Part shown: one piece after another, positions 22,300 to 30,373 of the stretch
How the letters are laid out: every line of letters begins with the position of its first letter
How positions within the stretch are numbered: the stretch's first letter is position 1
Source of the DNA: Arenimonas daejeonensis
GTDB taxonomy: Bacteria; Pseudomonadota; Gammaproteobacteria; Xanthomonadales; Xanthomonadaceae
DNA length: 64,000 nucleotides
Direction of reading: 5' to 3'
Assembly (NCBI RefSeq): GCF_007993735.1
Contig: NZ_CP042453.1
Coordinates: forward strand, 1,426,001 to 1,490,000
The notes under the pieces: model-generated
Databases searched by the model: none
What the model was told of the DNA's origin: nothing
What the model saw: only the letters and a program-made list of their open reading frames with translations
Position numbers and translations under genes: made by a program

Positions 22300-23176
22300 C
22301 TAGCCCGGCCAGTCCAGCGTGCCGCGCACCACGGTCTGCACCTGGCCGCCGGACCAGACTTCGCCGTCGGCATCCACGCGCAGCTCCAGCCGCGCGTCGT
22401 GCCCGACTTCCCGGCCCTGGCTGACCACGTAGCGGCCGTCGGCGTGGGGCAGGGCGTTCCGGTCGTGCAGGTAGGCGGCCAGCGTGGCGTTGGCGGCGCC
22501 GGAAGCGGCGTCCTCGACCTGGGCCGGCAGGCCGACCAGGGCCCGCACCACCAGATCGTAATCGCGGCCGGTGCAGCGCGCGAACACGCACAGCCCCATC
22601 GCGTCATGCCCGCGCGCCAGCGCCGACACCGCCTCCCAGCGCGGCACCAGGCTGCGCACCGAGGCTTCGTCCACCAGTTCGGCCAGCCACCAGCGGCGGC
22701 CGCCGTCCATCAGCACCGGCGGCAGGGCGCCCGGCACATAACCCTTGAGCGCGGCACCGAGGCGCCGGTCGTCGGGCTGGCCGATCTCCAGCACCCGCGC
22801 CCGCGGCGCGCGCACCGCCAGCCGGCGATTGCGGCCTTCGCCCCGCACTTCGATCGGCAGCAGGCCGACCGCGCATTCCTGGATCAGCAGACCCTCCCGC
22901 GGCGTCGCCAGGCCGGCTTCCAGCACGGCATGGGCGCTGCCGATGCTGGGGTGGCCGGCGAACGGCACCTCGCGGCGCGGGCTGAAGATGCGCAGGCGGT
23001 AGCTGGCCTCGGAACGGACGGCGGCAGCACGAAGGTGGTTTCCGGCAGGCGCGTCCAGCGCGCGATGGCCTGCATGGCGTCGTCGTCGAGGCCGGCGGCG
23101 TCCAGCACCACGGCCAGGGGTTGCCGTCGCCGGGTTTGGCGGCGAAGACGTCGAGTTGTACGAAGCTGCGCGGCAT
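22300..23176 (-). CDS. PhzF-family isomerase/epimerase (two frameshifts in this assembly)
   Basis: A PhzF-like protein of about 292 residues after correction. It runs from MPRSFVQLDVFAAKPGDGNP (with the start of the catalytic N-terminal motif), through LAVVLDAAGLDDDAMQAIAR and TRLPETTFVLPP, to the rest of the protein, with the family motif VPFAGHPSIGSAHAVLE and the C-terminal GDGEVWSGGQVQTV-like end. Frame breaks occur at the G4 run 23117-23120 and near 23010; one inserted base each restores it. Known members isomerise small hydrophobic metabolites. No phenazine genes are nearby, so the substrate is open. It lies next to the tandem repeat. Confidence 0.8.
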
Positions 23177-23362
23177 CGGGGGCGTCCTGCCCGGTGGGGA
23201 GGGGCGAGAATATCAGCCGGGCGCGGGGGATCGGTGGACCAGGGGTTGGGTGCTGATAACCCAGCGGCATCAGGCGCGGGGTGGTGCGCCGGGCTTTGAG
23301 CCTCGCGGGTCGAGCGTGGGACTCGGCCGTCCGAGTTCTGGACTCGGGGCTCCGGCCTCAGA

Positions 23363-23655
23363 GCTCGGCGCTCCAGCATGGAGAACTCGACGTTCCGGGC
23401 TCGAAGCTCGGCGCGTCAGCATGGAGAGCTCGACGTTCCAGGCTCAGAGCTCGGCGCTTCAGCATGGAGAGCTCGACGTTCCAGGCTCAGAGCTCGGCGC
23501 GTCAGCATGGAGAGCTCGACGTTCCGGGTTCAGAGCTCGGCGCCCCAGCATGGAGAGCTCGACGTTCCGGGCTCAGAGCTCGGCGCTTCAGCATGGAGAG
23601 CCTGACGCTCCGAGCTCAGGTGCCCGGCGCTCCAATATGCAGAGCCTGACGGGTC
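23363..23655. repeat. 43-bp tandem repeat (about 6.5 copies)
   Basis: The phrase GCTCGGCG begins at 23363, 23406, 23449, 23492, 23535 and 23578, exactly every 43 bp, and a decayed copy starts at 23621. Each unit contains CAGCATGGAGAGCTCGACG and two GAGCTC hexamers in most copies. Decayed units may extend left to about 23300. Because 43 is not a multiple of three and the unit has no stop, all three + frames stay open; these open frames are not genes. There are no spacers, so it is not CRISPR. The function is unknown. Confidence 0.9.
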
Positions 23656-23766
23656 GAGATCCCCGGCCCAGGTGATGAAGACTGAATCTCTCGCCGGCCA
23701 GCGCTTGCAGACGGCGTCCGGCAAGGCCTGAGTTGCCGGGCTTTCCGGGCTGGTCCCGCCATCGGG

Positions 23767-23935
23767 ATATGCCTCATTTCTGCTCCAATAAATGGATATG
23801 CCTCGTTTCCGCTCGATAAACACGGAATGCGACTGTTCCGTCATTGGAACGAATGCCGCCAATCAATTGGCAAATCAAACCCTTGCCTATTGACCAGAGG
23901 CGATTGTGAAGCCAACCATACGGTCATATGCCTCA
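23767..23935 (+). other. A+T-richer leader of the cassette array with three ATATGCCTC repeats
   Basis: ATATGCCTC occurs at 23767, 23796 and 23927. The first two lie in a near-perfect 28-29-bp direct repeat (GGATATGCCTCATTTCTGCTC versus a copy with two changes). The stretch precedes the first cassette junction at 23955, where an attI site would be expected. No integrase reading frame was recognised in 23177-23954. Calling this an attI relic is a guess. Confidence 0.3.
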
Positions 23936-23965
23936 CTTTTGAGGCCTACTAGGCGTTAGGCCTCA

Positions 23966-24301
23966 ATGAAGCTAGAGAACGCACTTCTAAAAAGATCAGG
24001 GCAAATCTGGAAGATGCGAACGATGTATGCGTGTCTCGTCGGTGCAGCGATATTGATGGCGTCTGGCATGTGGCAAATTGACTCACTTGCTGCCGGCACT
24101 TTTGCGCTGCTCGTGCTTGGCGGCTCAGCACTCGGCCTGCTTGGTCTCGCGTTCTCCTGTATCGCGATACGCTGCGGAAGCTGCGACGCACCATGGTTTT
24201 GGCAAGCGGTGAGTAGCAAGCACAGCTCCTCCTGGCTTTCCTGGCTCGAGTCTCAGCAAAGCTGTCCAACCTGCGGCGCCTACAAAGCTGACGGCGCCTA
24301 A
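23966..24301 (+). CDS. Cassette 1: small membrane protein with zinc-ribbon-like cysteines
   Basis: A 111-residue protein of unknown function. Two transmembrane segments (TMYACLVGAAILMASGMW and TFALLVLGGSALGLLGLAF) are followed by a cytosolic tail with two Cys pairs (CGSC and CPTC), a likely zinc site. ATG 23966 lies 11 bp after the core site, and the stop codon is inside the attC1 core, the usual compact cassette format. No promoter is visible within the cassette. Confidence 0.7.
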   Translation: MKLENALLKRSGQIWKMRTMYACLVGAAILMASGMWQIDSLAAGTFALLVLGGSALGLLGLAFSCIAIRCGSCDAPWFWQAVSSKHSSSWLSWLESQQSCPTCGAYKADGA

Positions 24302-24351
24302 CTCATCATTCAAGCCGACGCCTTCGGCGCGGCTTAACTAGGGCGTTAGGC
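24296..24351 (+). other. attC1 recombination site
   Basis: 56 bp from GCCTAAC (24296-24302) to GTTAGGC (24345-24351), with the inner stem AAGCCGACGCC / GGCGCGGCTT and loop TTC. One bulged base in the stem corresponds to the extrahelical base that sets strand choice in attC recombination. Confidence 0.9.
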
Positions 24352-24353
24352 CG

Positions 24354-24697
24354 GTGAAAGCATTTCGCGTCGCCACTGTCGGTTTGTCACTTTTGCTAGG
24401 CCTCGCGGCGATGCTCCACGTGGTTCTCTTGGCTTCGGACGGAGAGGTCTATCGTCGCTGGGTCTATCTGCAGATGGCTTTACTGTTCACGTGCTCGGCC
24501 CTACTTATGGCATCACGGGGACTCGTGTTGTCCTCCTTATGTCCGCTGTGGCGGTAGCGGCACCGGCAATATTCATCAACCACACGTATCTCAACTACGG
24601 CGGGTCTGCCGCGGCGTTGGTGTTGCCTGCGTTGGTGGCGTTGGCGGTAGGCGGCGTGGCAATCTACCAGTGGCTTGGGCGCGGGAGCCCGGCCTAA
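24354..24697 (+). CDS. Cassette 2: four-helix membrane protein (probable frameshift)
   Basis: GTG 24354 opens two transmembrane segments (VGLSLLLGLAAMLHVVLL and QMALLFTCSALLMASRGLVL). The frame then hits a stop at 24557. The neighbouring frame carries two more helices (VVLLMSAVAVAAPAIF and ALVLPALVALAVGGVAIYQW) and ends inside attC2 at 24697. A single-base error near 24535 would join them into one protein of about 114 residues. Two separate short ORFs are the alternative. No homologous family was recognised. Confidence 0.5.
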
Positions 24698-24747
24698 CCA
24701 ATCATTCAAGCCGACGCCTTCGGCGCGGCTTAACCAGGGCGTTAGGC
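24692..24747 (+). other. attC2 recombination site
   Basis: 56 bp from GCCTAAC (24692) to GTTAGGC (24741-24747). It differs from attC1 at only a few positions outside the stem (AACCAATC and TTAACCAGG). Confidence 0.9.
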
Positions 24748-25001
24748 CTTCATCCGCTTCTTCTACTTCGGCCCGTGCGCGGGCCGTTGTCGTTTCTGGG
24801 CTTCGGCTGCGCTGGTGGCAGTTCACGCCGCCCGCGTTTGTGGGTTCACGCCCGTGCTGCTCATGCCGCCCGGATCGGTCGCGCTTGAGGACCAGCATTC
24901 CAGGGCGGGCAATCGCTGGCCGTTACGGCCTCTCGCTCCGCGGGCCCGTCCAGCTCGGCCAGCCCCCACTTGCAAGGCGCCAGTCCGTGGCTTAGCGTCC
25001 G
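24748..25001. other. Cassette 3: no convincing gene
   Basis: 254 bp bounded by attC2 and attC3. Frames open on the + strand run in from attC2 or out through attC3 and begin with attC-derived peptide (SFKPTPSARLN), so they are not credible genes. The minus strand has only short Arg/Gly-rich frames. GC content is higher than in the other cassettes. It may be a non-coding cassette or a cassette carrying a small RNA or promoter; I see no specific signal. Confidence 0.55.
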
Positions 25002-25092
25002 GCCTAACCATTCATTCAAGCCGACCGCCGGGGATGGACGCGTCACAAGTCATGCTTCTTGGGCCGGCGGCGGCTTAACTTAGGCGTTAGCA
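25002..25092 (+). other. attC3 recombination site (long form)
   Basis: 91 bp from GCCTAAC (25002-25008) to GTTAGCA (25086-25092). The outer arms match the other sites, but the apical part is longer and imperfect (GCCGACCGCCGG ... CCGGCGGCGGC). Confidence 0.8.
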
Positions 25093-25095
25093 CTC

Positions 25096-25494
25096 ATGTT
25101 CAAGATCGTCGCGATCCTAGGCATCACCCTATTCCAGCTTCTGGTTGTTGCGCCGAGCGTCGCCTCTGACAGGAAGTGCACTCCTGAGATTGCATGGTCG
25201 GACGTTCCGTCAGAGATCCGCGCGCATTTAGTCGAGGCGGTCGACGGGGAGATTTCTCCTCAGGGCGGTCCGTTCAATTCGACGGACATAATCATTGATT
25301 CGACTCCTCGTGCTCGTTTCTTTGGCGCCTGTAGTGAATCGGATGGTTGGGCAGTTGCGATAGAGCGCGGGGGTATCGGGTATCACATGCAGGTGTTCAC
25401 GTTTGCCGGCGAAACCTTGACGGACAAATGGACCGCATTTGTGCCATCCGGTGGATTCACTCCCTCTGCGCTGGTCAAGCCGGCTGAGCGCTAA
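25096..25494 (+). CDS. Cassette 4: secreted protein of unknown function
   Basis: A 132-residue protein with a clear signal peptide (MFKIVAILGITLFQLLVVAPSVAS). The mature domain is about 108 residues with two cysteines (KCTPEIAW and GACSESDGW) that could form a disulfide. The rest is mixed alpha/beta (VPSEIRAHLVEAVDGEIS, YHMQVFTFAGETLTDKWTAF). ATG 25096 is 4 bp after attC3 and the stop lies in attC4. No family was recognised. Confidence 0.7.
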   Translation: MFKIVAILGITLFQLLVVAPSVASDRKCTPEIAWSDVPSEIRAHLVEAVDGEISPQGGPFNSTDIIIDSTPRARFFGACSESDGWAVAIERGGIGYHMQVFTFAGETLTDKWTAFVPSGGFTPSALVKPAER

Positions 25495-25544
25495 CTAATC
25501 ATTCAAGCCGACGCCTTCGGCGCGGCTTAACTCAGGCGTTAGGC
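25489..25544 (+). other. attC4 recombination site
   Basis: 56 bp from CGCTAAC (25489-25495) to GTTAGGC (25538-25544), with the standard AAGCCG-A-CGCC / GGCGCGGCTT stem. Confidence 0.88.
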
Positions 25545-25549
25545 CCGCT

Positions 25550-25972
25550 ATGACCGACCGTGCCGCCCGTCTTGCACTCATCCTTCTGGGGACGGTCTGG
25601 GCATGCCATGTCGCTTTCTTCGGCATAGAGTTTTCTCTCGCCGTTGAGCCGGAGGCATTCAATACATTTTCAGCAGTGTATTGGTTAGTGGTTGGGTTCA
25701 TCGTGGCATCTCCACTCTGGATTCCAGCGCTAGTTCCAGCCCAGTACCCAAGGACATTGGGGCTTGCGGCTATAGTTGGCGCAGCTGGGACAATAGGTCT
25801 GGTTGTAGTGTCCGGCTCCATTGTCTTTAAACAAACTGTTCGTTTGGCCTCAGGCTATTCGTTTCACTGGCCTGCTCTCTTCCATGGGTTGGTCTTGCTA
25901 GCTGCGTGTATTCTCGGCCTTGTTTTGATTCGAAGGCTCTTGCGTGCCAGGCGGCTCCCAACACTGGCCTAA
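25550..25972 (+). CDS. Cassette 5: four-helix membrane protein
   Basis: A 140-residue integral membrane protein from ATG 25550. Predicted helices are ALILLGTVWACHVAFFGIEF, VYWLVVGFIVASPLWIPAL, LAAIVGAAGTIGLVVVSGSI and ALFHGLVLLAACILGLVLI, followed by a basic C-terminus (RRLLRARRLP). No catalytic or binding motifs are seen. The stop codon lies within the attC5 core. Confidence 0.7.
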   Translation: MTDRAARLALILLGTVWACHVAFFGIEFSLAVEPEAFNTFSAVYWLVVGFIVASPLWIPALVPAQYPRTLGLAAIVGAAGTIGLVVVSGSIVFKQTVRLASGYSFHWPALFHGLVLLAACILGLVLIRRLLRARRLPTLA

Positions 25973-26022
25973 CTAATCATTCAAGCCGACGCCTTCGGCG
26001 CGGCTTAACTAGGGCGTTAGAC
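25967..26022 (+). other. attC5 recombination site
   Basis: 56 bp from GCCTAAC (25967-25973) to GTTAGAC (26016-26022). The inner stem is identical to attC1. Confidence 0.9.
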
Positions 26023-26040
26023 GCTCTTGGGGAGAATCAT

Positions 26041-26535
26041 GTGGCGTTGATCAAGTGCAAAGCATGTAACTCGGAAATGTCTAAACAGGCCTCGGCCTGC
26101 CCAAAGTGTGGCCACCCCAATAAGGAAGCTAACTATCTTTCAGGTGGGCAGGTACTTCTTGGTTTCGGAATTGCCATTGCGGCAATTTGGTGGCTCGCAA
26201 GCGGCAACTCCAGCTCGGTTTCCACGCCAGATCCCAAGCGCACGGCACTAGCAAGCATGGAACTAGTGGACGTTGCCTGGAAAAAGGATGGTTTCGGAAG
26301 CGTCATGGTTATGAGCGCCACAATCAAGAACGGGGGCGCCGCTTCTGTCAAAGACGTAGAGATTGATTGTACTCACTCGTCAAATAGCGGTACCAAAATC
26401 GACAGCAACTCAGAAATCATCTACGAAATCGTTCCAGCAGGTCAGTCGATCCAGATAAAGGATTTCAGTATGGGCTTCATACACAGCCAAGCTTCCTCCA
26501 CAAGTTGCAGAATCACAGACTTGGTTCCGCTGTAA
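26041..26535 (+). CDS. Cassette 6: zinc-ribbon membrane-anchored protein
   Basis: 164 residues from GTG 26041, behind a strong GGGGAG site. The N-terminal zinc ribbon is KCKACNSEMSKQASACPKCGHPN (CxxC ... CxxC, about residues 6-29, described in two parts). One transmembrane helix follows (LLGFGIAIAAIWWLA), then an extracytoplasmic beta-rich domain of about 105 residues (VMVMSATIKNGGAASVKDVEI, YEIVPAGQSIQIKDFSMGF) reminiscent of FxLYD-type accessory domains. The function is unknown. The codon usage is less GC-rich than in core genes, consistent with a transferred cassette. Confidence 0.75.
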   Translation: MALIKCKACNSEMSKQASACPKCGHPNKEANYLSGGQVLLGFGIAIAAIWWLASGNSSSVSTPDPKRTALASMELVDVAWKKDGFGSVMVMSATIKNGGAASVKDVEIDCTHSSNSGTKIDSNSEIIYEIVPAGQSIQIKDFSMGFIHSQASSTSCRITDLVPL

Positions 26536-26537
26536 AC

Positions 26538-26593
26538 GTCTAACCATTCATTCAAGCCGCCGCCTTCGGCGCGGCTCAACTGGGGCGTTAGGC
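26538..26593 (+). other. attC6 recombination site
   Basis: 56 bp from GTCTAAC (26538-26544) to GTTAGGC (26587-26593). Two stem positions differ from attC1 (AAGCCGCCGCC, CGGCTCAAC). Confidence 0.88.
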
Positions 26594-26627
26594 CGGCATG
26601 TATCCACCATCTCAACTGGAGAGTTCA

Positions 26628-27020
26628 ATGAGCAGCAATCTTGATGTGGTTCGCGGCGTGTATGCGGCGTTTGCTGTCGGGAACATTCCTGGTGTGCTTG
26701 GGGTTCTCGCTGAGAACGTTCATTGGACCGAAGCTGCGGGTGGTCCTTATGGAGGTGTTTCGGTCGGCGCGAACGCTGTGCTTGAGAATGTCTTTATGAA
26801 GATCGGGGGCGAGTGGGACGGCTTTGCGGCTGTTCCGAGTGAGTTCGTTGAGCAAGGCTCCACAGTCGTGGCTCTCGGTGAGTACAGCGGCACATACAAA
26901 GCTACTGGCAAAAACTTCAGCGCTCCGTTTGCGCACGTCTGGAAATTCTCGGAAGGAAGGGCGATTTCCTTCCACCAGTACACGGACACTGCCGTCCATT
27001 TGCGGCCAATGCAGGGCTAG
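26628..27020 (+). CDS. Cassette 7: SnoaL-like / ketosteroid-isomerase-fold protein
   Basis: 130 residues from ATG 26628, which has a GGAGAG site; the earlier ATG 26598 lacks one. The sequence follows the NTF2-like SnoaL pattern: NLDVVRGVYAAFAVGNIPGVL, LAENVHWTEAAGGPYGG, FMKIGGEWDGFAAVPSEFVEQGS, and a final HVWKFSEGRAISFHQYTDTA. These small alpha/beta cones bind or isomerise hydrophobic ligands. The ligand is unknown. It is the only cassette product here assigned to an enzyme-type fold. Confidence 0.8.
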   Translation: MSSNLDVVRGVYAAFAVGNIPGVLGVLAENVHWTEAAGGPYGGVSVGANAVLENVFMKIGGEWDGFAAVPSEFVEQGSTVVALGEYSGTYKATGKNFSAPFAHVWKFSEGRAISFHQYTDTAVHLRPMQG

Positions 27021-27026
27021 AATCCG

Positions 27027-27099
27027 GCCTAACCACTCGCTCAAGCGGCCACATCAATCGTTTTGCGATTGATGTGGCCGCATAGCTCAGGCGTTAGGT
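27027..27099 (+). other. attC7 recombination site (divergent apical hairpin)
   Basis: 73 bp from GCCTAAC (27027-27033) to GTTAGGT (27093-27099). The apical part is a long perfect hairpin, CGGCCACATCAATCG / CGATTGATGTGGCCG with loop TTTTG, unlike the other sites. This suggests the cassette came from another lineage. Confidence 0.82.
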
Positions 27100-27103
27100 G
27101 CCT

Positions 27104-27481
27104 ATGCGAATTGCGGCAGCGACTTTAACAGCAGTGCTTACGCTCCTTGCCGGCGCTTTGTTGTCCGGCGCAGGGCATGGCTGGAATGCCGGCGCCTTGG
27201 GCTGCCTGGCGCTAGCTCCAGTTGCCTTCGTCTCGTGCACAAACGCCCTCGGCCCCAAGCCATCTGTGCGCGCCGCCGTCATTGTCCTGTCGGTTGGCTT
27301 GCTCATTTGCTTGCTCGTGTCCCTTCGGACACTTTCTGATGGTCCCGCGCACTTCTCCCAGTATTTTGCCGTCAATGGCATTCTTGGCGTGTCGGTAGCC
27401 ACATTTGCGGTGCTTGGCTGGTTGGCTCCGTCACTGGCGGTGCTCTTTTGCGCTCATCCTCGGGCGCGGTTAGGCACCTGA
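27104..27481 (+). CDS. Cassette 8: membrane protein of unknown function
   Basis: 125 residues from ATG 27104, five bases after attC7. Three to four hydrophobic segments are seen (ATLTAVLTLLAGALLSGAG, LGCLALAPVAFVSCTNAL, AAVIVLSVGLLICLLVSL, FAVNGILGVSVATFAVLGWL). No motif or family was recognised. Confidence 0.65.
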   Translation: MRIAAATLTAVLTLLAGALLSGAGHGWNAGALGCLALAPVAFVSCTNALGPKPSVRAAVIVLSVGLLICLLVSLRTLSDGPAHFSQYFAVNGILGVSVATFAVLGWLAPSLAVLFCAHPRARLGT

Positions 27482-27532
27482 TTGATCATTCAGGCCGACG
27501 CCTTCGGCGCGGCTAAACTCAAGGCGTTGGCC
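27476..27532 (+). other. attC8, decayed recombination site
   Basis: The inner stem is present (GGCCGACGCCTTCGGCGCGGCT), but both outer core sites have mutated: the left arm reads ACCTGATTGATC where GCCTAAC is expected, and the right core is GTTGGCC (27526-27532). It is probably inactive. Confidence 0.7.
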
Positions 27533-27552
27533 GCTCCGCATCTGGTGGCGGC

Positions 27553-27592
27553 GGCTAACCGATCATTCAAGTCGACGCGGCGCTTCCTAAGC
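27553..27592 (+). other. Truncated attC9 at the right end of the array
   Basis: Only the left half of a site remains (GGCTAACCGATCATTCAAGTCGACGCGG in two halves around 27553-27580). The right arm and core are absent. It lies about 20 bp after attC8, so a deletion has removed the last cassette and marks the array boundary. Confidence 0.6.
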
Positions 27593-27596
27593 TTTG

Positions 27597-27633
27597 GTGG
27601 ACACCCTGATCCAACCCATCAGGAGTCGTCCAC
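27597..27633. repeat. Imperfect inverted repeat between cassette array and lysAC
   Basis: GTGGAC (27597-27602) pairs with GTCCAC (27628-27633), and CCTGAT (27605-27610) with ATCAGG (27618-27623), loop CCAACCC. It could be a transcription-stopping hairpin or the remnant of a mobile-element end. There is no T-run. Confidence 0.45.
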
Positions 27634-27764
27634 ATGCCAACCCCAGGCCGGCCCCCTCCAGACCCCGCCCCCGGCCCGCCGCCCGCCCCACCCATCGTTT
27701 AAACTCCCCGGAGCCGCGCCGGCCCCGCCGCCGCGGCACCCCTGCCACCACCCAGATGGACCCC

Positions 27765-30373
27765 ATGAGCCCAGCCGCGCCTGCCGCCGGTGCCGACGCA
27801 CCGGATTGGATCGTCCTCAAGTTCGGAGGCACTTCGGTGTCCCGACGCCACCGTTGGGACACGATCGGCCGGCTGATGAAACGGCGCGCGGACGAAGAGG
27901 GTGCCCGCGTGCTGGTGGTGGTCTCGGCACTGTCAGGTGTCACCAACGAACTGCAGGCGATCTGCGACGGCCATGCCGACGTCGCCGGCACCCATGCGCG
28001 CATCGCCGCGCTGGTGCACCGACACGAGGACTTCGCCGAGGAACTTGGCGTCGGCAGCGGCGTGCTGACCGAACGCCTGGCGGCGCTGATCGCGCTCGGC
28101 GACGATGAGCGCGCCGCCGCGGGTGAGCTGTCCTGGCAGGCCGAAGTGCTGGCCCAGGGCGAACTGCTGTCGTCCACGCTCGGCGTCGCCTATCTGCAGA
28201 CCCAGGGCCTGGACGTGGGCTGGACCGATTCGCGCGACTGGATCCAGGCGCGGCCGATGCCCAACCAGAACGAATGGAGCAAGCGCCTGTCGGCGTCCTG
28301 CGACTACACCGGCGACGCCGGCCTGCGCGCGCGTTTTGATGCCGACGGCCCGGCGCTGCGCATCGCCCAGGGTTCATCGCCCGCGCGCCCGATGGCGGCA
28401 CGGCGATCCTCGGGCGCGGCGGTTCCGACACGTCCGCGGCGTATTTCGGCGCCCTGATCGGCGCGCGCCGGGTCGAGATCTGGACCGACGTGCCCGGCAT
28501 GTTCAGCGCCAACCCGCGCGCCGTGCCCGATGCGCGCCTGCTGACGCGCCTGGACTACGAAGAGGCGCAGGAAATCGCCACCACCGGCGCCAAGGTGCTG
28601 CACCCGCGCTGCATCCACCCCTGCCGCGAGGCGCGGGTGCCGATCTGGATCCGCGATACCGAGCGACCGGACATGGCCGGCACCGTCATTGATTCCTCAG
28701 CGCACACGCTGCCGGGCGTCAAGGCGATCAGTTCGCGCCGCGGCATCGTGCTGGTGTCCATGGAAACCATCGGCATGTGGCAGCAGGTCGGCTTCCTGTC
28801 CGACGTGTTCGAACGGTTCAAGGCGCACGGCCTGTCCATCGACCTGATCGGTTCGTCCGAGGCCAACGTCACCGTGTCGCTGGACCCCAGCGACAACCTT
28901 GTGAACACCAACGTGCTCGATGCGCTGTGCGCGGACCTGGCGCAGGTGTGCCGGGTCAAGGTGATCGCGCCCTGCGCGGCGATCACTTTGGTCGGCCGCG
29001 GCATGCGTTCGCTGCTGCACAAGCTGTCGGACGTCTGGGCCGAGTTCGGCCGCGAGCGCGTGCACCTGATCTCGCAGTCGTCCAACGACCTCAACCTCAC
29101 CTTCGTGGTGGACGAGGGCCTGGCCGAAGGCATGCTGCCGGGCCTGCACGCGCTGCTGGCGCAGTCGGGGGCGATGCCGGTGACAGAGGCGGCGGTGTTC
29201 GGCCCCAGCTGGCGCCGCATCGGCCAGCCGGCCGCCGGCCGCCCGCTGCCCTGGTGGCACGCCGCCCGCGAGCGGCTGTTGCATTCGGCCCGTACCGAAA
29301 CCCCGCGTTACGTCTACCACCTGCCGACGGTGCGCGAGCGCGCCCGCGAACTGGCCGGCATCGCCGCCGTGGACCGGCGTTTTTCGCGCTCAAGGCCAAT
29401 CCGCATCCGCGGGTGCTGCAGGTGCTGGAGGCCGAGGGTTTCGGTTTCGAATGTGTGTCCCAAGGCGAGATCGAACACCTGTTCCGCGTGCTTCCGAAGC
29501 TGGCGCCGGACCGCGTGCTGTTCACGCCCAGCTTCGCGCCGCGCGGTGAATACGCCACGGCGCTGGGCAAGGGCGTCTTCGTCACCATCGACAGCCCGGT
29601 GCCGCTGCGCCAGTGGCCGGAATTGTTCAAGGGCCGCGAAATCGTGCTGCGCGTGGACCCGGGCTTCGGCCAGGGCCACCACGAGAAGGTGCGCACCGGC
29701 GGCAAGGGCGCGAAGTTCGGCCTCGCGGCCGAAGCGCTGCCCGACTTCCTGGACGCGGTGCGCGCGTCCGGCGCGCGCATCTGCGGCCTGCACGCGCACA
29801 TCGGCAGCGGCATCCACGACGCCCAGCACTGGCACACGGTGTACGCACAGCTGGCCGCGCTGGCCGAGGACATCGGCACCATCGGCTTCATTGACGTCGG
29901 CGGCGGCCTTGGCGTGGCCTACGACCCGGACGCCGATCCCTTCGACATCAACGCCTATGCCACCGCGCTGGCCGAGGTGAAGGCCACCTACCCGCAGTAC
30001 GCGCTGTGGGTGGAGCCGGGCCGCTACCTGGTGGCCGAAGCCGGTGCGCTGCTGCTGCGCGTCACCCAGGTCGCGCGCAAGCAGGGCCAGCGCCGCATCG
30101 GCGCCGACGGCGGCATGAACGCGCTGATGCGCCCGGCGCTCTACAACGCCTGGCACGAGATCGTGAACCTGACGCGCCTGGCCGATGCGCCGGGCGAACC
30201 GGCGGAAGTGGTCGGCCCGATCTGCGAGACCAGCGACGTGATCGGCCGCCAGCGCCGCCTGCCCGACAGCACGGCCGAGGGCGACGTGCTGCTGGTCGGC
30301 CATGCCGGCGCCTACGGCGCGGTGATGGCCAACCGCTACAACCTGCGCGAACTGCCGCAGGAGGACGTGATCG

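Follow-up and report, generated by a model that had tools for sequence, protein, structure and literature searches.

An attI-headed cassette array in Arenimonas daejeonensis, likely loaded in trans by a remote integron integrase

The window analysed here is a 64-kb stretch of the Arenimonas daejeonensis chromosome, and positions in the window array and its flanks are counted within it. Between phzF and lysAC it contains an integron cassette array with no integrase gene (intI) beside it. A preliminary description of the window read this array as a CALIN (cassettes without integrase) or as an array split from its platform. We find that the array is headed by what appears to be its own integration site, attI, with a predicted cassette promoter (Pc), a head which that description had missed. 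The CALIN label holds formally, there being at least two attC sites and no integrase nearby, but the array is not the remainder of a vanished platform: the same genome has a complete one, whose intI is open, 1.08 Mb away. We think it likely that this is a satellite array, with its own attI and Pc and without intI, loaded in trans by the single resident integrase. The remote IntI would recognise the satellite attI and insert excised cassettes there through the folded bottom strands of their attC sites, and the local Pc would transcribe the first cassettes. Such a satellite would serve as a second expression slot and as a store for the same cassette pool.

Results

The window array is headed by a predicted attI site

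The array occupies 23956-27580 on the forward strand, with a first core at 23956, a degenerate core near 27526 and a truncated attC that ends at 27580. Measured core to core it comprises eight cassettes, seven with an open reading frame (ORF), one of them broken, and one without. Eight attC sites and a truncated ninth share one orientation, as judged from direct repeats, by reading and by alignment. The attC-like repeats lie at 24296, 24692, 25002, 25489, 25967, 26538, 27027 and 27476, with the truncated copy at 27553. The seven cassettes, one empty cassette and about nine attC sites reported before are therefore borne out, with the qualification that the core boxes of the eighth attC are degenerate and the ninth is cut short. 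The bottom strands of the attC sites fold as hairpins better than most shuffled sequences (8/8; z −1.8 to −8.6). The flanks have a G+C content of about 0.70, and seven of the eight cassettes, those measured, lie lower at 0.51-0.67, as had been claimed.

To the left of the first core lies the attI/Pc head segment (23764-23960, forward strand). Its left end (23764-23822) is made up of two 29-bp direct repeats at 23765-23793 and 23794-23822, and its right part (23890-23960) holds a Pc-like promoter, predicted as TTGAC with ACCAT 18 nt further, followed by attI with the core TAGGCG^TTAGG. Position 23955, given previously as the start of the array, immediately precedes the point at which this core is cut. 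The window attI is 88% identical to the platform attI over 51 bp, at and to the left of the first core. It aligns with six other attI sites and matches R2, an attI model of seven loci for which it was itself a training row, with an E value of 2.2e-17. The TTGAC to ACCAT distance of 17-18 nt is kept at 7/7 aligned loci and the spacer sequence varies; we predict that this pair is Pc.

Sixteen bases of the window attI (23926-23941), the left half of the attI palindrome, recur at 23767-23782 and 23796-23811, about 130-160 bp upstream in the window. The 29-bp repeats are possible candidates for integrase-binding repeats. The palindrome and the upstream repeats might form a binding site or a hairpin at the 5' end of the RNA, both of which are possible.

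Searching 61 genomes with the attI segment gave eight matches in three species of the genus: three in this genome (coded G000), three in G003 and two in G011. There are attC sites downstream at all seven of these attI loci other than the window. In an all-against-all comparison, the two G003 satellites are homologous to platform DNA over about 200 bp. This homology begins in the repeats immediately upstream of intI, takes in TTGAC, ACCATACGG and the core, and ends at the intI start. The window has two separate blocks in common with G003 loci, one being the repeats and the other the attI, and the attI block alone with its own platform. No intI remnant was found beside the window attI. A 25-nt in-register match to intI at the C3 satellite of G003 was weak (E 0.009) and was not used. 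To judge from its sequence, the window array has an attI at its head as a complete integron does; the intI that should adjoin it is 1.08 Mb away.

A single resident integrase lies outside the window

The preliminary description found no intI in the 64 kb and proposed looking for one on the rest of the chromosome. TIGR02249 gave no match within the window, in agreement with this. In the whole genome it gave one locus over the cut-off, outside the window (481 bits; chromosomal positions 371451-372392, reverse strand), where the frame is open for 354 aa. Four weaker rows, at two other places, were all below the cut-off. This intI belongs to a platform at 371-381 kb (region L006), in which intI faces away and is followed by attI and seven attC sites. 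Beyond these come transposase-like and istAB-like frames, recognised by reading, and then four more attC sites. These insertion sequence-like genes (an rve transposase and istAB-like frames) split the platform array at L006 13723-16519.

We trained an attC covariance model on the eight window sites, which makes it circular for the window itself. At E ≤ 2e-4 it gave 21 sites in the genome. Eight are the training sites of the window, 11 belong to the platform array, and two are solo sites. A third attI, which is decayed, is located at G000:C1:1914336-1914368 (reverse strand) with one attC at 1913881-1913939 (reverse strand). No recognisable attI was found by reading upstream of the solo attC at 1367402-1367461.

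Three cassettes are shared between the window and the platform

The first three cassettes of the window array, all on the forward strand, have near-identical copies in the platform, core to core. Cassette A (23956-24345), which adjoins attI, has an ORF of 111 aa (23966-24301) and an attC at 24296-24352, and agrees with L006:13086-13474 at 389/390 bases. Cassette B (24346-24741; attC 24692-24748) agrees with L006:11987-12383 at 395/397 bases, and its frame, broken here, is open in the platform copy. Cassette C (24742-25086), with no convincing ORF and a long attC (25000-25093), agrees with L006:12743-13085 at 342/345 bases. They are arranged as A-B-C in the window and as B-x-C-A in the platform.

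The junctions of the shared cassettes fall at att cores, and cassette A abuts the window attI core exactly. Its left neighbour is attI in the window and attC in the platform, with six identical bases (TAGGCG) to the left of the cut. Cassette A differs at 1/390 bases while the two attI differ by 12%, which indicates that A arrived after the attI copies had diverged. A site-specific recombinase fits the junction of A best, and the mover may have been the remote IntI acting in trans. The cassettes could instead have been copied without IntI, the repeated attC sites of the two arrays serving for homologous recombination or gene conversion. Identity between attC copies reaches about 98% over 54-57 bp, long enough for some RecA exchange, and junctions at att sites would be expected by this route too. 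However, the six identical bases to the left of the cut are too few for RecA and the cassette order differs between the arrays, and we regard this explanation as very unlikely.

Outside this genome, G131 has one 472-bp cassette (98%) common to loci 0.70 Mb apart, with the same kind of sharing as in the window and its platform.

attI-headed arrays without intI recur across the family

When R2 was searched against 198 genomes of the family, 21 genomes matched. Their 29 matches, seven of them training rows, divide into 13 with intI in the locus (in two of these it is in pieces), 14 with attC and without intI in about 1.5 kb, and two with neither. Apart from G000, G003 and G011, nine genomes have R2 satellites, and all of them (9/9) carry a single intact intI, over the cut-off, at another place. 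In G030 there are attI matches and an intI in pieces, with no attC beside the matches and no intact intI elsewhere.

A larger attI model, R3, was made from 34 attI. The hairpin in R3 has 5 bp that covary, with 88.8% of cells paired and 19 double-change cells compared with 5.0 in shuffles. Against 296 genomes R3 gave 343 matches in 167, with at least two matches in 108 genomes and at least three in 47. Eighty of the listed R3 loci were inspected; as most of them came from genomes having at least two listed matches, their split is not a rate. It comprises 33 platforms (29 with attC), 43 loci that lack intI over at least 2.2 kb upstream, of which 36 have attC and seven do not, and four loci with intI fragments (three with attC). 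Among the 36 is the G063 locus, an attI within an attC array. Taking R2 and R3 together, 50 attI loci in 38 genomes (37 without G063) have attC and no intI beside them.

An intI over the cut-off is present elsewhere in 26/27 R3 satellite genomes, besides G000, G003 and G011. Among the R3 genomes checked for intI there was a match in 36/37, over the cut-off in 35; G012 has fragments only and G234 has none. Some genomes have, in addition to the main intI match, another that scores lower, at 355-380 bits (G002:C5, G003:C3, G287:C1, G195:C1 and G100:C1). In single-contig genomes the satellites are 0.33-1.93 Mb from the platform or intI. Among the named genomes 15/17 have an attI match. Examples in which attI has attC but no intI within about 1.5 kb are Stenotrophomonas nitritireducens DSM 12575, Lysobacter concretionis Ko07, Luteimonas cucumeris CGMCC 1.10821 and Pseudoxanthomonas broegbernensis DSM 12573. 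From this recurrence it seems common for several docking sites to be served by a single integrase.

The recurrence also bears on whether the window cassettes were simply dropped at an ordinary site (attG), the likeness to attI being due to chance or to an assembly artefact. The available text of PMC12444791 gives attG as a route for cassettes outside integrons, and in this assembly the phzF and lysAC frames are broken. Against this, 27/29 R2 matches are beside intI or attC, satellites with long flanks are found in single-contig genomes (for example G285 and G325), and the window locus is within a single contig of 3.03 Mb. Additionally, comparing the flanks of 11 other satellites with those of the window array gave no common DNA at E 1e-15. 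We consider insertion at attG to be extremely improbable.

Satellite attI sites resemble the platform attI of their own genome more than expected (0.769 vs 0.694; 11/20000 permutations), in a test of the 42-nt attI end in ten satellites from as many genomes. Such a likeness would be expected from shared ancestry, from gene conversion and from co-adaptation to IntI alike.

The array lies in an insertion between phzF and lysAC

As the preliminary description had proposed, the locus was compared with relatives. In the 15/15 sister-species loci compared (25 sister hits) the array is absent and phzF is within about 0.3 kb of lysAC. The outer homology ends at 23218 and at 27692-27695, which places an insertion of about 4.47 kb at 23219-27691. 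The comparison suggests that it is recent and lineage-specific.

A 43-bp tandem repeat of 6.8 copies, rich in GAGCTC, is located between phzF and attI (23351-23645). It is on the side where intI would be in a platform and is absent from the sister loci compared. A tRNA-Gln call at 23265-23357 overlaps this repeat, looks spurious and was rejected. The frames of phzF (22300-23379) and lysAC (27594-29980) are broken in the window. The lysAC frame is open for 526-1128 aa in the 25 sister hits and for 288 aa here, which makes assembly indels likely. The assembly is listed as 86% complete.

Remaining cassettes and their products

The other five cassettes are also on the forward strand. Cassettes D (25087-25538; ORF 25096-25494; attC 25489-25545) and E (25539-26016; ORF 25550-25972; attC 25967-26023) have no Pfam family. 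Cassette F (26017-26587; ORF about 26041-26535; attC 26538-26594) has a weak zinc-ribbon match below the Pfam cut-off. The product of cassette G (26588-27093; ORF 26598-27020; attC 27025-27100) belongs to SnoaL_2 (PF12680, E 3.1e-12). Cassette H (27094-27526; ORF about 27098-27481) ends in the attC with degenerate core boxes (27474-27532), and the left half alone of a further attC (27553-27580, forward strand) marks the right end of the array. SnoaL_2 is the single clear Pfam family among ten cassette proteins (six from the window and four from the platform, including the open platform copy of B), and PADLOC gave no match for the same ten. Rfam gave no match over the window at its gathering thresholds.

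Discussion

Several observations weigh against loading of the window array by a remote integrase. The anatomy of the array is secure; loading in trans and the activity of the promoter are what we infer from it. A strict sigma-70 consensus scan gave no promoter in the array region. Both R2 and R3 were trained partly on loci that they find again. The own platform is ranked first by 5/13 satellite attI and sixth or worse by four. At least 150 bp downstream of attI is shared in 12/54 same-genome pairs of attI loci, and at least 300 bp at 90% or more in four of those 12 (G114, G247, G277 and G285). Eight satellite-platform pairs (G087, G149, G121, G177, G141, G031, G015 and G205) share no stretch of at least 110 bp, in comparisons that often covered just 2.5 kb of array DNA. 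G234 has attI-headed arrays (L316 and L317) in a genome without an intI match. Finally, three features fit decay: the frame of cassette B is broken, the eighth attC is degenerate, and this genome's third attI locus is decayed.

These signs of decay are what would be expected of a relic, a duplicated platform that lost its integrase and left attI and array inert, which is the usual reading of a CALIN. Fragments of intI at 4/80 of the inspected attI loci, and homology that in G126, G218 and G267 runs beyond the point where intI likely starts, point the same way. On the other hand, cassette A is by its near-identity a later arrival at the attI core, this core is intact in the window, and the insertion is absent from all 15 sister loci compared. 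We therefore think it unlikely that the window array is an inert relic, and favour a satellite array loaded in trans.

The attI unit itself probably arose by copying of the platform attI/Pc region without a lasting intI. The intI fragments beside some attI and the homology past the intI start favour duplication of a platform followed by loss. Mobility of the attI unit is favoured by its recurrent left end, the GATATnCC repeats just upstream of intI, and by attI units inside arrays. In G285 an attC is joined at the recombination point to the GATATnCC end of an attI unit, in G063 a Pc-attI segment of about 210 bp lies inside an attC array, bounded on one side by an attC core and on the other by the core of the segment itself, and in G257 there are two attI within one array. 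It is conceivable, although we hold it doubtful, that the docking site is mobile, the integrase lifting Pc-attI units as attI-bearing cassettes out of the platform and replanting them around the chromosome to give distributed integrons across the family, with many expression slots to one recombinase.

In the textbook integron a single integrase is paired with a single, neighbouring attI, and arrays without an integrase are usually read as degraded integrons. The standard tool, to our knowledge, seeks no attI outside class 1, and the degraded-integron view is partly due to this. If the satellites are live, a cell would have more expressible cassette slots than have been counted, some CALINs would be working parts of an integron, and the traffic of cassettes between loci would be directly testable in strains that are named and non-pathogenic.

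Trans-mobilisation of CALINs is an accepted idea in the available text of PMC12444791, and the Treponema paper, in the part available, has a single attI per integron (PMC3607928). Arrays with extra attI copies are not described in the titles and abstract openings searched, which is no proof of absence; what we did not meet in this literature is an array with its own attI and promoter across a family.

The window array can be compared with four known systems. With a sedentary chromosomal integron, as represented by its own platform, it has in common the attI/Pc head, the attC cassettes in one orientation and some of the cassettes themselves; it differs in having no intI, its attI standing alone 1.08 Mb from the integrase. 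With the CALINs, as they appear in the available text of PMC9024848 and PMC12444791, it shares eight attC sites and the lack of an integrase nearby, and differs by its own attI and predicted Pc. The CALINs of Xanthomonas belong to the same family and are also arrays away from the platform, which is at ilvD; according to the available passages of the survey, about half of the genomes have them and seven such loci apart from ilvD are known, with no mention of attI at those arrays (PMC12444791). Two named Xanthomonas genomes have one attI match each, and with one attI per genome the satellite model leaves the published Xanthomonas CALINs unexplained; they may be of another kind. The delta-attI cassettes of class 1 integrons, usable by IntI1 in assays according to the available text of PMC12901181, likewise carry attI sequence away from its platform. 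In that text the attI-derived sites end resistance cassettes, whereas in the window a Pc-attI unit heads the array.

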